Source of the DNA: a virus
Strand: one strand, 5' to 3'
IMG/VR virus record: IMGVR_UViG_3300042731_003861
Location: 1-40,988 of that record
DNA length: 40,988 nucleotides
Shown here: positions 4,637 to 39,800 of the stretch, in pieces
Numbering within the stretch: position 1 is the first letter of the stretch
Layout of the letters: every line of letters begins with the position of its first letter
Notes under the pieces: model-generated
What the model saw: the letters and a program-made list of their open reading frames with translations, nothing else
Told to the model about the DNA's origin: nothing
Database searches by the model: none
Program-made: the position numbers and the translations under genes

Positions 4637-5119
4637 ATGAAAACACTAAGAAATTTATTTTTTATCACATTCGGAGCATTTTTATTTGCTCATATTCTTT
4701 CAGAAATAACAGGATATAAATTAAAAGATATTTTAGAAATAGAATATAATTCAACAAATCAAAATTTAATTTCTAATAATGATCAAGATATCATATTAGA
4801 GAGATGGTTCAGGGTTGAAAATAAAACAGGGGCATTAATACCTAATGGATCAATTGTTTATTTTTCAGGAATTGGAGATGAATATTTATTAATCGAATTA
4901 GCAAATGCAAATGATGTATGTAAAGCAAATTTACTTAGTATTACTTTAAATGATATTGAAAATAATTCTATAGGACTTGTTAAAGTGATCAATGAAAAAC
5001 CTAATATTATCAAAAAAGAATCAAACAGCGATTATATTATCATTTTTTTATCAATTACAACTATTGGAGTTTTAATATGGTTAATCAGAAAGAAATATTA
5101 CAAAAACATTAATAATTAA
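4637..5119 (+). CDS. Membrane protein carrying a tail-fibre-like domain
   Basis: This 160-residue protein has a hydrophobic helix at about residues 6-21, a soluble domain (about 43-123) and a second helix at 133-150 followed by a basic tail (RKKYYKNINN). The soluble part resembles residues 103-190 of the tail fibre at 36809-40753. Without gaps, W57-A91 matches fibre W122-A156 at 15 of 35 positions by my count, including 'NGSIVY' against 'NGSVVY'. The domain is probably displayed in the periplasm or at the cell surface, or the first helix is a signal peptide. It sits among early genes, far from the virion module. A role in superinfection exclusion or receptor masking is my inference. No known family is assigned for the whole protein. 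Confidence 0.8.
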   Translation: MKTLRNLFFITFGAFLFAHILSEITGYKLKDILEIEYNSTNQNLISNNDQDIILERWFRVENKTGALIPNGSIVYFSGIGDEYLLIELANANDVCKANLLSITLNDIENNSIGLVKVINEKPNIIKKESNSDYIIIFLSITTIGVLIWLIRKKYYKNINN

Positions 5120-5123
5120 AATC

Positions 5124-5552
5124 ATGGATGCAAAACAATTTCGTTTAGGAAACTATGTACAAAGCCACAATGGAATATTAACAGTTTCTGATTTAACAAA
5201 TGATATTAGTTGTTCGTTTAAAATCAGAGCATGGCAAGTAAATGGAGGTTCATTGGGTAATAGTGATGAATTTATAAAGCCTATCCCTCTTACAGAGCAA
5301 TGGCTAATTGACTTTGGATGTGAATGCAATGAATATAGCTCTGGAAAATATTACTCTCTGCAACTGATTGATAACTTATGGTTCTATTCTAATAAATTTG
5401 GGAATGGAATATGCACAAGTGAAATTGAATGCGCAACTTGCAGTAATTATGGAGAAGAAATAGATATTGTTAAAAATATTGAATTCGTTCATGTATTGCA
5501 AAATTGGTATTATATGTTTAAAGGCGAAGAATTAATACGTAAAAATAAATAA
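5124..5552 (+). CDS. Conserved Bacteroidota phage protein, 'PIPLTEQWL' family (copy 1)
   Basis: This 142-residue protein shares with 19178-19525 the N-terminal 'xxRLGNYV', a central 'KPIPLTEQWLxDFG' and the C-terminal 'VHVLQNWYYMFKGEEL' pattern. This family recurs in Bacteroidota phages and has no known function. This copy has extra cysteines ('GCECNEYSSG', 'CATCSN'). The start follows 'AAAATC' directly. Confidence 0.75.
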   Translation: MDAKQFRLGNYVQSHNGILTVSDLTNDISCSFKIRAWQVNGGSLGNSDEFIKPIPLTEQWLIDFGCECNEYSSGKYYSLQLIDNLWFYSNKFGNGICTSEIECATCSNYGEEIDIVKNIEFVHVLQNWYYMFKGEELIRKNK

Positions 5553-15306: not shown

Positions 15307-15336
15307 ATCAATTCGTAAAATTAAAAAATGAAAATC

Positions 15337-15885
15337 ATGAAACAATTATTATTTATTTTATTATTAATTCCTATAATAGGATTTGGACAAGTTAAGCTTT
15401 CTAAAAACCATCACTTCAAATATTATCATGGTGATGGATGGTATTCTTTCGATGGTGTGCATAAAATCAAACTTAAAGAATGCGCAGAAGCAGATAGCGT
15501 TATTGATGCTACAATAAAGTTTCATGCAGATGATGATCTTCCGACAGATTCGTTTACGACTGTTGTACCTACAATTAAAGACAAACCGGAAGAAATGCCA
15601 ATATGGACGTTTGATACTTTGGTTAGTCCGAAATCTACAATTCTATCTGCTGATTATAGCAAACAGTTTTGGATGGAGCGATCAGCGTTTATATCTTTGG
15701 AGGATATAGAAGAATACATAGAGTGGTGTAAAAATAAGGCTCCTAAAGATACCATGAAAAATGGAAGCTTTATAATGGGAATCACTCACTATATTGAAGA
15801 TGATGTGATTTTTAATAAGGAACCAACATTTCTAGGATTTTATAAATGGTTAAAAAAGAAAAATGATGAAACAAGCAATAATTGA
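15337..15885 (+). CDS. Secreted protein, unknown function
   Basis: I choose the ATG at 15337 (MKQLLFILLLIPIIGFGQ), since it follows 'AAAATC' and gives a clean signal peptide with likely cleavage before 'QVKLSK'. An ATG at 15328 adds three residues. The mature part is soluble, with aromatic and acidic segments ('YHGDGWYSFDGVHKIKL', 'ISLEDIEEYIEWCKNK'). An exported early or mid-phage protein could act in the periplasm, for example in exclusion. No family recognised. Confidence 0.7.
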   Translation: MKQLLFILLLIPIIGFGQVKLSKNHHFKYYHGDGWYSFDGVHKIKLKECAEADSVIDATIKFHADDDLPTDSFTTVVPTIKDKPEEMPIWTFDTLVSPKSTILSADYSKQFWMERSAFISLEDIEEYIEWCKNKAPKDTMKNGSFIMGITHYIEDDVIFNKEPTFLGFYKWLKKKNDETSNN

Positions 15886-16391: not shown

Positions 16392-16466
16392 GCCGATTTT
16401 GTGTAGTGGTAGCACGGTTCTGGTCGGGTACCGGAAATTGCAGGGGTTCGAATCCTCTAATCGGCA
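16392..16466 (+). tRNA. tRNA-like gene, anticodon uncertain (best fit GGG)
   Basis: A 7-bp acceptor (GCCGATT / AATCGGC, then A), D arm GTGT-AGTGGTA-GCAC, and a perfect T arm AGGGG-TTCGAAT-CCTCT are clear. The best anticodon helix is TTCTGG / CCGGAA with loop TCGGGTA, giving anticodon GGG (Pro) but with C at position 33 instead of U and two extra bases before the stem. The acceptor and D arm look more like tRNA-Gln. CCA is not encoded. The minus-strand ORF over the cluster is an artefact. Confidence 0.7.
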
Positions 16467-16468
16467 CA

Positions 16469-19177: not shown

Positions 19178-19525
19178 ATGGAAACAAATGAATTAAGGAT
19201 TGGGAATATAATTTATAATACACGAGGCAAAGCTGATAAAGTTAATATTGATGCTTTGAAATATTTGCAACAATACCCAAACACACTATGCCAAGTAAAA
19301 CCTATCCCTCTCACCGAACAATGGCTAAAGGATTTTGGATTTGAGGGAAGTGTAAATGAGAATTCAAAATGTAGGACATATTCTATTGGCAAATTTAAAA
19401 TATGGATTCAAAATGGATCATTTTGTTTTCATCATTATTCATATTTCGAAATCAAACACGTCCATCAACTCCAAAACCTTTATTTCGCATTGACAGATGA
19501 AGAATTAACTTTAAAATCAAAATAA
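19178..19525 (+). CDS. Conserved Bacteroidota phage protein, 'PIPLTEQWL' family (copy 2)
   Basis: This 115-residue protein carries 'ELRIGNIIY', 'VKPIPLTEQWLKDFGFEG' and 'IKHVHQLQNLYFALTDEELT'. It is a paralogue of 5124-5552 and closer to the common form of the family, without that copy's extra cysteines. Function unknown. The region is slightly more GC-rich than its neighbours. Confidence 0.8.
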   Translation: METNELRIGNIIYNTRGKADKVNIDALKYLQQYPNTLCQVKPIPLTEQWLKDFGFEGSVNENSKCRTYSIGKFKIWIQNGSFCFHHYSYFEIKHVHQLQNLYFALTDEELTLKSK

Positions 19526-26986: not shown

Positions 26987-27403
26987 ATGAAAAAATTAAT
27001 TTTAATAATGGTATTTGCCGTTGTAGCAATGGCAGCCAGCGCACAAAAAGGGCGACCTATTATATTAGAAGCTGATACGCTTACTGATGCTGAAACAAAA
27101 TATATTGTTACCCCTCAATTTACAGGTGATGATGTATTGTCTGTTCAGGTATTGTTCACGCAATTGACTGGAACAGCAGGAGGAACAGCAACTTTCGAAG
27201 GTTCTGTGGATGGTGTTTCTTATGTTCCGATTACTGACGCAGTTGGAGTTCTAAAGGGATATCCTAATGATACTCTTACTATTACTGATGGAGCAGTTAC
27301 AACCTGGGTGCTTGAAAAAAATAATTTCTATAAATATAGAGTTAAGCTTGAAGGCACAGGAACTCAATCAACAAAAGTAGAAACGGCATACATTAGAAAG
27401 TAA
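26987..27403 (+). CDS. Signal-peptide-bearing virion-region protein, possible decoration protein
   Basis: It starts one base after the capsid stop. Residues 1-19 (MKKLILIMVFAVVAMAASA) form a clear Sec signal peptide with cleavage before 'QKGRPIIL'. The 138-residue product then shows an Ig-like beta pattern ('GTATFEGSVDGVSYVPITDA', 'YKYRVKLEGTG'). The position fits a capsid decoration protein, but an export signal is unexpected for a virion part assembled in the cytoplasm. It may be exported, or the signal may be ignored. Confidence 0.72.
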   Translation: MKKLILIMVFAVVAMAASAQKGRPIILEADTLTDAETKYIVTPQFTGDDVLSVQVLFTQLTGTAGGTATFEGSVDGVSYVPITDAVGVLKGYPNDTLTITDGAVTTWVLEKNNFYKYRVKLEGTGTQSTKVETAYIRK

Positions 27404-35676: not shown

Positions 35677-36812
35677 GTACATTTATAATAAGTCCATTAA
35701 ATAGTATAGAATATAAAAAACGTGACAATGCGTTACCGAATTATAACAATACTTTACAATCTGAGATAGAAGGTAAAACAAATGAAGCATATTGCCAAAA
35801 ATTTCTATCTGCTGATAATGTAAGAACTCAAATAAAAACAGATTATCAAACTGTTACTGCTACTTTGATTGATGAAGCAGGAACAGAAACATCATTAACA
35901 GTTACAGAAGTATCAACATATACTGATTTTAGTTTCTGGGAATTTGTATTTACGGGGCAATCGACAGGATATTATTATATTAAAATTCAAGGTACTGATC
36001 CTGCATTTGATACTGTCAATTATCAAAGTGAACCTATTGAAATTGTTGAACCTTATATAGCACATAATGGAGCAAATATAATACAGGATCATTTAAAAAT
36101 CAGGCATTATAATCGTGAAAATAATTTTGATCTTGATTATTCAACAGGAATAGAGCATATTTTATGGATTCCAGCAGAATTATTTGAAGCTGTATCAGGA
36201 GGCGAAGCAGAAATATATAATAATTTAGGAAATGAAACTAAATTACAAGAAACGAATCAACGAATATTTACTTTAAAAACCGATCCGATTCCAAGATATT
36301 TATTTTTAAAAATAAATGAGGGAGCAAGTCAAGATTTTTTTGAAGTTAATACCATTGAATATGTCACAAACGATAAAGGGGAACCAGAATATAGCAATGA
36401 TTATACATTAGTTAGCTTTTCGGCTAATCTTACAGATAGATTTGTAGTAGGTTTAAATAGTGATGATCAGGGCTTTGTTTGTCCTGATATCGAAACAGGT
36501 GAAATTATGTTATTAGAAGAATTAAATGCATTTGGAACATTTCAACTACAAGTTCCTGCCGGTTATGCAATAGAATGGATTAAGCTGTTTAAACAAACAG
36601 GCACACAAGCAACTATTGATATGGGTTGGTCACCATCTGGAACAGATATTTTAGATGGAGCAGTTCTAACTGATAGTAGGGCAAATGAATATAGTAGACT
36701 TACAAGGATTGTGGGTGAAGCATCGGCAGGAACTATTTACGGTGAAGTTTCAGGAGTTGGAGCAACTGTAAATATTTATATTCAATTAGTAAAATTTAAA
36801 GAAATAACATGA
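35673..36812 (+). CDS. Tail protein with Ig-like N-terminus
   Basis: This 379-residue protein opens with a beta domain ('TATLIDEAGTETSLTVTEVS', 'YYYIKIQGTDPAFDTVNYQS'), and later has 'FGTFQLQVPAGYAIEWIKLF' and Gly/Ser-rich beta parts. It is between the tail tip and the fibre, overlapping both by ATGA, so it is probably a baseplate or fibre-attachment component. No family recognised. Confidence 0.7.
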   Translation: MSTFIISPLNSIEYKKRDNALPNYNNTLQSEIEGKTNEAYCQKFLSADNVRTQIKTDYQTVTATLIDEAGTETSLTVTEVSTYTDFSFWEFVFTGQSTGYYYIKIQGTDPAFDTVNYQSEPIEIVEPYIAHNGANIIQDHLKIRHYNRENNFDLDYSTGIEHILWIPAELFEAVSGGEAEIYNNLGNETKLQETNQRIFTLKTDPIPRYLFLKINEGASQDFFEVNTIEYVTNDKGEPEYSNDYTLVSFSANLTDRFVVGLNSDDQGFVCPDIETGEIMLLEELNAFGTFQLQVPAGYAIEWIKLFKQTGTQATIDMGWSPSGTDILDGAVLTDSRANEYSRLTRIVGEASAGTIYGEVSGVGATVNIYIQLVKFKEIT

Positions 36813-39800
36813 TGAAAAAATTACTCACGATAGCATTGATTTTTCTAGTTGGATATATCAATGCACAAGACATAAGTAGGATTGATTCTTTAAAAGTCAA
36901 AGGTGGAGCAACTTTTGAAAATATAATTGATGTAGATACAAATAGGATTCGTAGTGTTGGTGATCCTGTTGAAGATTATGATGCAATTAATAAACAATAT
37001 TTTGATAATAATGCTATTTCTCAGGGAGTACCAATAGATTCATTATTATTTTCTACTAATATTGCGAATTTACAATGGGACGAAGGAAAAATATATTATG
37101 ATTCTATTACAGGAGGATTAATATTTTTCAATGAAGAACAAGATATTGCTTTAAATATTGGATTTGAAAGTTGGATTAAAGTTAAAAACAATACAGCAGG
37201 CATAATTACAAATGGATCTGTAGTGTATCCCACTGGCGTAGAAAATGGTAATGTAACGATAGGATTAGCAGATGCAAAAGAAAGGCGAAAAAGTAGCTTA
37301 GTTGGAGTTGTAACTCATGATATTGCAATTGGAGAAATTGGATATGTTACAAAAGCCGGTGAAGTTGGAAATTTAAATACAACTGGGTTTGATCCTGATT
37401 CTCTTTTATATCTTTCTCCTGATATTCCAGGGACAATGACAAATACAAGACCTGATAACGGAGAATTTGCTGTAATATTAGGAGCAGTTAAAACAATAGA
37501 CAATGATTCAGGTTCTATTATTGTTGACATTGTTCCATCTGAATTAGCAACTGAATTAACAGCAGATAGGGGTTGGTCAAAAATACATAATACAACAATT
37601 ATTCCAACAGCATATAACCGAACATTAAAAGTTATTCCAACAACAGGAAATTCATTTTATTATTATCAAGATGGAGTAAAATATGAATCTGATGGTGATA
37701 CCATTGTTTTTAATGACACTGAAGGAACAATAGATTTTTACTACGTTAATGATGTTTTAACAGCAGCCTATAATCAAACAGAATCACAGGTCAGAGAAAC
37801 GTATACAAAATATGCTGGTGTATCAAGAGCATATTGGGATGCAGTGAATGATACTATCATTTTTATTAATAATATGCGACATGGATTCAAGCCTGATGGT
37901 GAAACATGGGCGATGTCATGGGATTTTCATAAATGTGAAGTATTAGAAGGGCTTGCACTTACAGATATTATTGCAGATGCAAGTGGTGATTTAGATGCGC
38001 ATGCTCAATTTGGTAATGAATCGGGATTAATAAGAAATCAAGGAATATTGACTTCTATTCCAAGTCAGACAAGCACAACAGGATATACAGTATTTTATCG
38101 TGATGGTGCAACAGCATGGCGTTCTCAGGATGGTGCGCCGTTTCCAGTACTAACAACTGGAACAGGTCGTTTAGCTTGGAATGAAGAAGTAGGAGGAAGT
38201 TGGCAATTAAGTGAAGTTCCAAACAATGATTATGTTCTTTATCATTTATTTGTATCTAATACTTTAGGTGATAAACTTGGTACAGTTATAGGACAAAGTG
38301 AATATGCCACTATAGCTGCGGCACAAGCAGGAGCATTAACAGAAATCCAAAATTTGCTAATTGGTCAATTCCCTATTAAAGAATTAGCACCCGTGGCAAC
38401 GCTTATTTATCAAACTGCAGATGTATATGCAAATGCAGTTAATGCAAGAATAGTTAGTGCTGAAGATATACAGGGAAATCCTGTTGATTATATAGATTGG
38501 AGATTTCAAATAATTCCTGGTGGAGGGACAGGAACAACGACCACAACATATCTAGGATTACTTGATACGCCAAGTACGAATGCTGGGGAAGCAGGAAAAT
38601 CTGCGGTTGTTAATCCTGGCGAAACTGGACACATATATGAATATAGAACAAAATCTGTCAATTCTAAAACTGTAGGAAGTTCGTTAAATGTAGATGTTAA
38701 TTTAGATGATGTTGCTGAAATTGATAGCATAACAGATGTAAATGTTTCATTTAATTCTAATTCTTACACAAAGTTAGCATCTGGAACAACAGCGCAAAGA
38801 CCTGCAAGTCCCATTAATGGAATGTATCGCTATGATAGTGATTTAACCAAAGCACAGACATATGAAAATGGGGAATGGAAAAATTTAATTACTTCTGCAA
38901 CAGATATAAATCTTTTTGATTACGTAAAAGGAGCTTTATCATCAACGGACAATGCTATTGCTTTATGGGATGGAACAACAGGCAAATTAATTAAAAATAG
39001 TTCAGCTACAATTGATGGTTCTGGTAATCTTGATGTAACTGGATCGATAGAGACTGTGGGCTTGACGAGTACGGATGATGTAGAAATAAACGGCGGAATA
39101 AGACCTCAATTTATTGCAGGACAAGGCACGGTTAAAACACATTTTGGGGATTTATCAGGTGCAGGGACTTTGTTTTTTAGCTCAAATTTAAGTTACGATG
39201 GTGCTAATTGGAATTTAGATGACACGGGTGTTGCGGGAATTGTTATATCATCCGCACAAACAACTCCATTGAGAATCAGAACAGCAACATCAGGAACTAA
39301 CCCAAGAACATTGACGGAACTATTGACAAGTGATGGAAGTGGTAATTTCACCTTCTCCGGCAACGTCTCATCTAACCCACCCCCAACCTTAGGCGATCAC
39401 TTAACGAATAAGACGTATGTGGATGCTGCAATCGGAACTAAAGCCAACCTCCCAGCTACTGTTGCGTATACGGATCAGTCGAATACGTTTAGTGGAGTGT
39501 TACAATCAATTAATCAAACTGGTGCAACTTCTAGTACCATGTTAGCATTAAGATCAAATTCTTCAGGAGCAGCAGATAGCGCAACACCAAATACAAATAC
39601 TACTGTTGAGATGGCTTCAGTAGGTGGCGCAGGTGGATATACCTCAAGGACTCAGTTTGTAAATAGTTTCAATTCATCCTTTAGTGGTACTGAATTTTCA
39701 ATACATACACGTGCTATATCTTTTGGAGCAATGACGGAAAGATTAAAAATAGATGATGTTGGTAATCTTGATCTAACAACAGGCTCCTACCAACTCAACG

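Follow-up and report, generated by a model that had tools for sequence, protein, structure and literature searches.

P22 SieA is a small inner-membrane protein made by the phage (162/164 aa), for which exclusion has been reported at the inner-membrane entry step (PMC10883804). Interference of another kind, directed against tail components, is described in PMC11364771 for the element-encoded Tai tail-assembly-inhibition proteins. A third point of reference is a structural module found inside large virion proteins such as gp61 of Roseobacter phage CRP-6 and the fibre of Synechococcus phage S-N03. A model of the module resembles phage capsid decoration proteins and the gp8.5 head-fibre base of phi29 (PDB 8saj, 8hdt, 9kzj, 6qyy), which are soluble virion components and share with it a likeness in fold only.

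The locus considered here lies in a stretch of 40,988 nucleotides from a virus (IMG/VR record IMGVR_UViG_3300042731_003861; "the window" below refers to this whole stretch). Its gene at 4637-5119 encodes a module homologous to those of CRP-6 gp61 and the S-N03 fibre, but in truncated form and set between two transmembrane (TM) helices rather than inside a large virion protein. SieA is used as a model for exclusion by analogy, both being small phage membrane proteins; SieA is predicted to have three TM segments whereas two are predicted in the window protein. The window protein finds no match in the 2023 release of PADLOC, which predates the Tai paper. Table 1 collects the features of the two genes concerned.

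Table 1. Positions in the window of features of the membrane protein gene and of the fibre-like gene.
Feature	Positions	Strand	Basis
Gene of 160-aa membrane protein with truncated module	4637..5119	+	ORF call; frame openness improbable without selection
N-terminal TM helix or signal anchor (residues 6-25), preceded by K2 and R5	4652..4711	+	Hydropathy; AlphaFold2 helix 2-25
Truncated fibre module (residues 35-118), profile positions 9-97 of 157	4739..4990	+	BLASTP, profile, AlphaFold2 beta core
C-terminal TM helix (residues 132-150), followed by RKKYYK	5030..5086	+	Hydropathy; AlphaFold2 helix 130-159
Fibre-like gene of the phage, 1314 aa	36809..40753	+	Module homologues annotated as tail fibre proteins
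Signal-peptide-like N-terminus of fibre (MMKKLLTIALIFLVGYINA-Q)	36809..36868	+	Fits Bacteroidetes Q rule (PMC10367356)
Full module in fibre (residues 89-241, ~155 aa)	37073..37531	+	Profile 3-155 of 157; AlphaFold2
C-terminal part of module (~residues 184-241), missing from membrane protein	37358..37531	+	Profile; AlphaFold2 models

The window and its signal peptides

The window begins its structural genes with the terminase, followed by capsid, tape measure and fibre; this order, the 30% GC and the Q-rule signal peptides together indicate a tailed phage, probably with a host among the Bacteroidota. Signal-peptide-like starts followed by Gln, fitting the Q rule, also occur in the gene after the MCP (gene at 26987-27403, signal-peptide-like start at 26987-27046) and from 40772 onward. 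The gene after the MCP has the same kind of N-terminus, ending before Gln, in six related loci (L003, L005-L009), as do the fibres of L021, L049, L069 and L113. The protein encoded at 15328-15885 begins likewise (MKIMKQLLFILLLIPIIGFG-Q) and has no PHROGs match. Q-rule proteins of unknown function have been described in Porphyromonas phages, where cleavage by the prohead protease has been suggested for the signal peptides of major capsid proteins (PMC10367356). The occurrence of such signal peptides on proteins of the virion module poses the question of why a phage would export structural proteins to the periplasm. The window also contains a single tRNA-Asp gene (16392-16467), and the proteins encoded at 5124-5552 and 19178-19525 both match phrog_10066, one PHROGs family of unknown function.

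Homology of the membrane protein to the fibre module

The initial annotation read the 4637-5119 frame as a membrane protein that carries a copy of a domain from the phage's own tail fibre. The frame, of 160 aa, was confirmed, as was the count of exactly 15 identities in 35 between W57-A91 and fibre W122-A156. BLASTP aligns residues 31-124 with fibre residues 91-189 at 36% identity (E 1e-12), and the local score of 138 stands 20 standard deviations above those of shuffled sequences (mean 38.5, sd 4.9, maximum 58, n=300). The significant profile match that had been called for as a check was obtained as well. With 72 independent viral copies as the basis of the profile, and with L021, the closest relative, excluded along with the two copies of the window, the fibre scores 1.3e-46 and the membrane protein 1.4e-17, while the next ORF of the window has E=2. 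The similarity therefore stands as homology, but it does not extend over a whole domain: the membrane protein has only the first ~60% of it, and after profile position 97 the rest is replaced by a linker and then a TM helix. These comparisons show that the protein corresponds by homology to the N-terminal ~60% of a structural module of virions, of which the phage's own fibre has the complete form, and homology and truncation together can be regarded as practically certain.

Structure prediction, proposed at the outset for both segments, agrees. In the AlphaFold2 model of the membrane protein (whole-protein pLDDT 78.6, pTM 0.46) a beta core lies between two long helices, with a strand order similar to that of the fibre module and with the last strands of the latter missing. 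The core is modeled with block-mean pLDDT mostly of 89-98 over residues 61-120 (75 for residues 91-100), and the full fibre module with a mean pLDDT of 92.4. The two hydrophobic helices noted at first sight are thus backed by both hydropathy and the AlphaFold2 model. Searches of Pfam, PHROGs, NCBIfam and PADLOC gave no significant match for the membrane protein; it matches no defence or exclusion family, with no defence profile hit in PADLOC at E 0.1.

The module itself is not peculiar to this phage. The hosts of the annotated phages in which tblastn detects it include Synechococcus, Pseudomonas, Roseobacter, Nitrincola, Acinetobacter and Limnohabitans, and most of the proteins concerned are annotated as tail fibre, tail or virion structural proteins. 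A search of 50 records gave matches in 46, all of them within open frames 243 aa long or longer. The sole record of the phage collection to match the membrane protein itself is CRP-6 (E 6e-5). In two loci, L030 and L031 (records G017 and G018), the module occurs twice in full within a single fibre frame of 1141 aa. In Foldseek the full fibre module finds decoration proteins and the base of the phi29 head fibre (best E 5.8e-4, probability 1.00, TM-score ~0.4-0.5), whereas the copy in the membrane protein, searched alone, matches these folds weakly, with E above 0.01. The module is thus a general structural one, common among large structural proteins in phages whose hosts are unrelated. The membrane protein departs from that pattern on two counts, having a partial module in place of the complete one of ~155 aa and being a protein of 160 aa with two TM helices in place of a large virion protein. 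Given the module's spread across unrelated hosts and its likeness to decoration proteins and a head-fibre base, a host-specific or receptor-binding tip is not indicated.

Relatives and origin of the truncated copy

No orthologue of the membrane protein was found in the IMG/VR, phage or genome scans; since the pattern-seeded scans cover part of each collection, this absence is provisional. A scan of viral contigs with the protein as single query confirmed no relative, and a scan of genome contigs with an alignment gave seven pattern matches, none of them confirmed. Screening for short or partial copies revealed no second membrane-anchored copy among 64 loci from the scan seeded with the membrane protein and 80 found earlier. 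The other partial matches among 143 viral loci are mostly cut off by the end of a contig or frame, and one, in L078, is weak. In two records that have capsid-region genes in common with the window (G001, G004), and in one whose fibre corresponds to fibre residues 52-607 at 61-77% (G009), the membrane protein matches within the fibres only. Hydrophobic 19-mers near the module, present in 19 of 148 domain matches, mostly coincide with one of its own strands and were not counted as TM helices.

In a tree of the module the truncated copy is sister to the window fibre and L021 (support 94/92), and in a broader set restricted to shared columns it again stands beside these two (91/78). These trees carry a long branch for the truncated copy, and their loci were fetched with alignments that included the window fibre. 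AU tests rejected none of three alternative placements (p 0.31-0.41). Descent from the lineage of the phage's own fibre is favoured: of the original suggestion that the domain was copied from the phage's own fibre, a nearby origin is retained with moderate support, and no claim is made for a strict own-fibre origin, since the AU tests leave other placements standing.

Topology and candidate functions

The charges in the membrane protein, K2 and R5 before the first helix and RKKYYK after the second, follow a positive-inside pattern, and thus predict cytoplasmic termini (N-in, C-in) and a periplasmic module. No cleavage site preceding a Gln is visible near the first helix, and by the Q rule this helix is read as an uncleaved anchor. 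Anchoring in the inner membrane with the module in the periplasm is accordingly the probable, if modeled, arrangement. Display at a membrane or periplasmic face, as first envisaged, thus survives for the anchoring, supported by hydropathy and AlphaFold2, and for the periplasm as predicted; display outside the cell is not supported.

The reading preferred here, which is tentative, is that an old, truncated fibre module was exapted into an inner-membrane accessory protein that perhaps excludes later phages at entry. A copy of an ancestral fibre module would have lost its last strands and come to lie between two TM helices, giving an inner-membrane hairpin with both termini inside and the half-module in the periplasm. 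This small accessory protein would most likely bind a partner of the module, candidates being a protein of the envelope or, in an incoming phage, parts of its virion or fibre, and later phages might be blocked at the inner-membrane or entry step, as for P22 SieA, with the surface receptor left unmasked. Taken separately, superinfection exclusion at the stage of entry is a possibility, though less likely than not. A more specific version, in which the tethered periplasmic module, being self-derived, acts as a dominant negative on its counterpart in phages that arrive later or compete, is unlikely.

Roles at the membrane other than exclusion are roughly as probable. The fibre fragment could serve simply as a beta scaffold in a protein of membrane or host-takeover function apart from superinfection, acting for instance on proteins of the envelope or on the timing of lysis, and this account is given the same tentative standing as the preferred one. 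Small membrane proteins are common in such regions of phage genomes, and the neighbours of the gene are small phage genes of unassigned function. The pattern of conservation fits as well. The protein holds 29 of 34 strongly conserved family columns, 19 of these 29 with the consensus residue, and mostly retains the core signature (N, NG, V-Y, G, A-A, D-I, G), but several nearly invariant positions are lost: the G and Q of IGQE are deleted, a G is changed to S and two T are changed. A core kept while nearly invariant residues are lost fits a conserved but altered role. The losses also count against the preferred reading, as this copy may no longer bind the usual partners of the module; so do the tree placements left standing by the AU tests and the lack of a match to any defence or exclusion family. 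The scaffold account suffers from the lack of a specific pointer to any such function.

The fragment could instead be debris of recent recombination, or a decaying piece with no function. Its truncation and the failure of the scans to find an orthologue would be expected of such a remnant, but the state of the gene makes this improbable. At 22% GC, 160 open codons at ~40% identity to the fibre would hardly persist without selection. A random 160-codon frame of the same composition stays open with a probability of 4e-8 (5e-5 with position-specific composition), and in neutral simulations from the fibre to 40% identity 0.5% of runs were stop-free, with a mean of 5.9 stops. In addition, the helices at both ends are well formed, the gene has a regular start and lies at a regular distance from the next one, and the conserved family columns kept by the protein likewise speak for selection. 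The open frame thus disfavours simple decay, the conclusion that this frame has been retained far longer than in a decaying copy is well supported, and it is very likely that the protein has a selected function.

The role first proposed, self-mimicry at the cell surface in which the displayed module masks the receptor or blocks incoming fibres, draws on the homology to the phage's own fibre, with its moderate tree support, and on the membrane anchoring. It is nevertheless quite improbable: the module is a general one with a decoration-like or head-fibre-base-like fold, found in phages of unrelated hosts, and is truncated here; the predicted topology places it in the periplasm, and thus under the outer membrane, which argues against masking of a surface receptor; and no outer-membrane or lipoprotein signal was seen in the protein. 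The gene precedes those for Erf, NinG, YopX and helicase-like proteins, a location that counts in favour of the preferred reading, and its designation as early is inferred solely from its place upstream of the Erf, NinG and helicase-like genes. This location, and the recognition of phage structural components by many immune systems (PMC11364771), would suit a membrane-bound decoy that titrates a host defence sensor of the fibre or decoration module, but with the module predicted to be periplasmic a cytoplasmic sensor is unlikely to meet it, and such a decoy is the least probable of these readings.

In summary, the 4637-5119 protein provides a concrete case, backed by a profile of independent copies, of a small phage membrane protein that reuses a structural module of virions, with the phage's own fibre among the nearest relatives of the reused module. 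If the protein does exclude phages through this module, it would represent a principle of exclusion built from self-derived structural parts.
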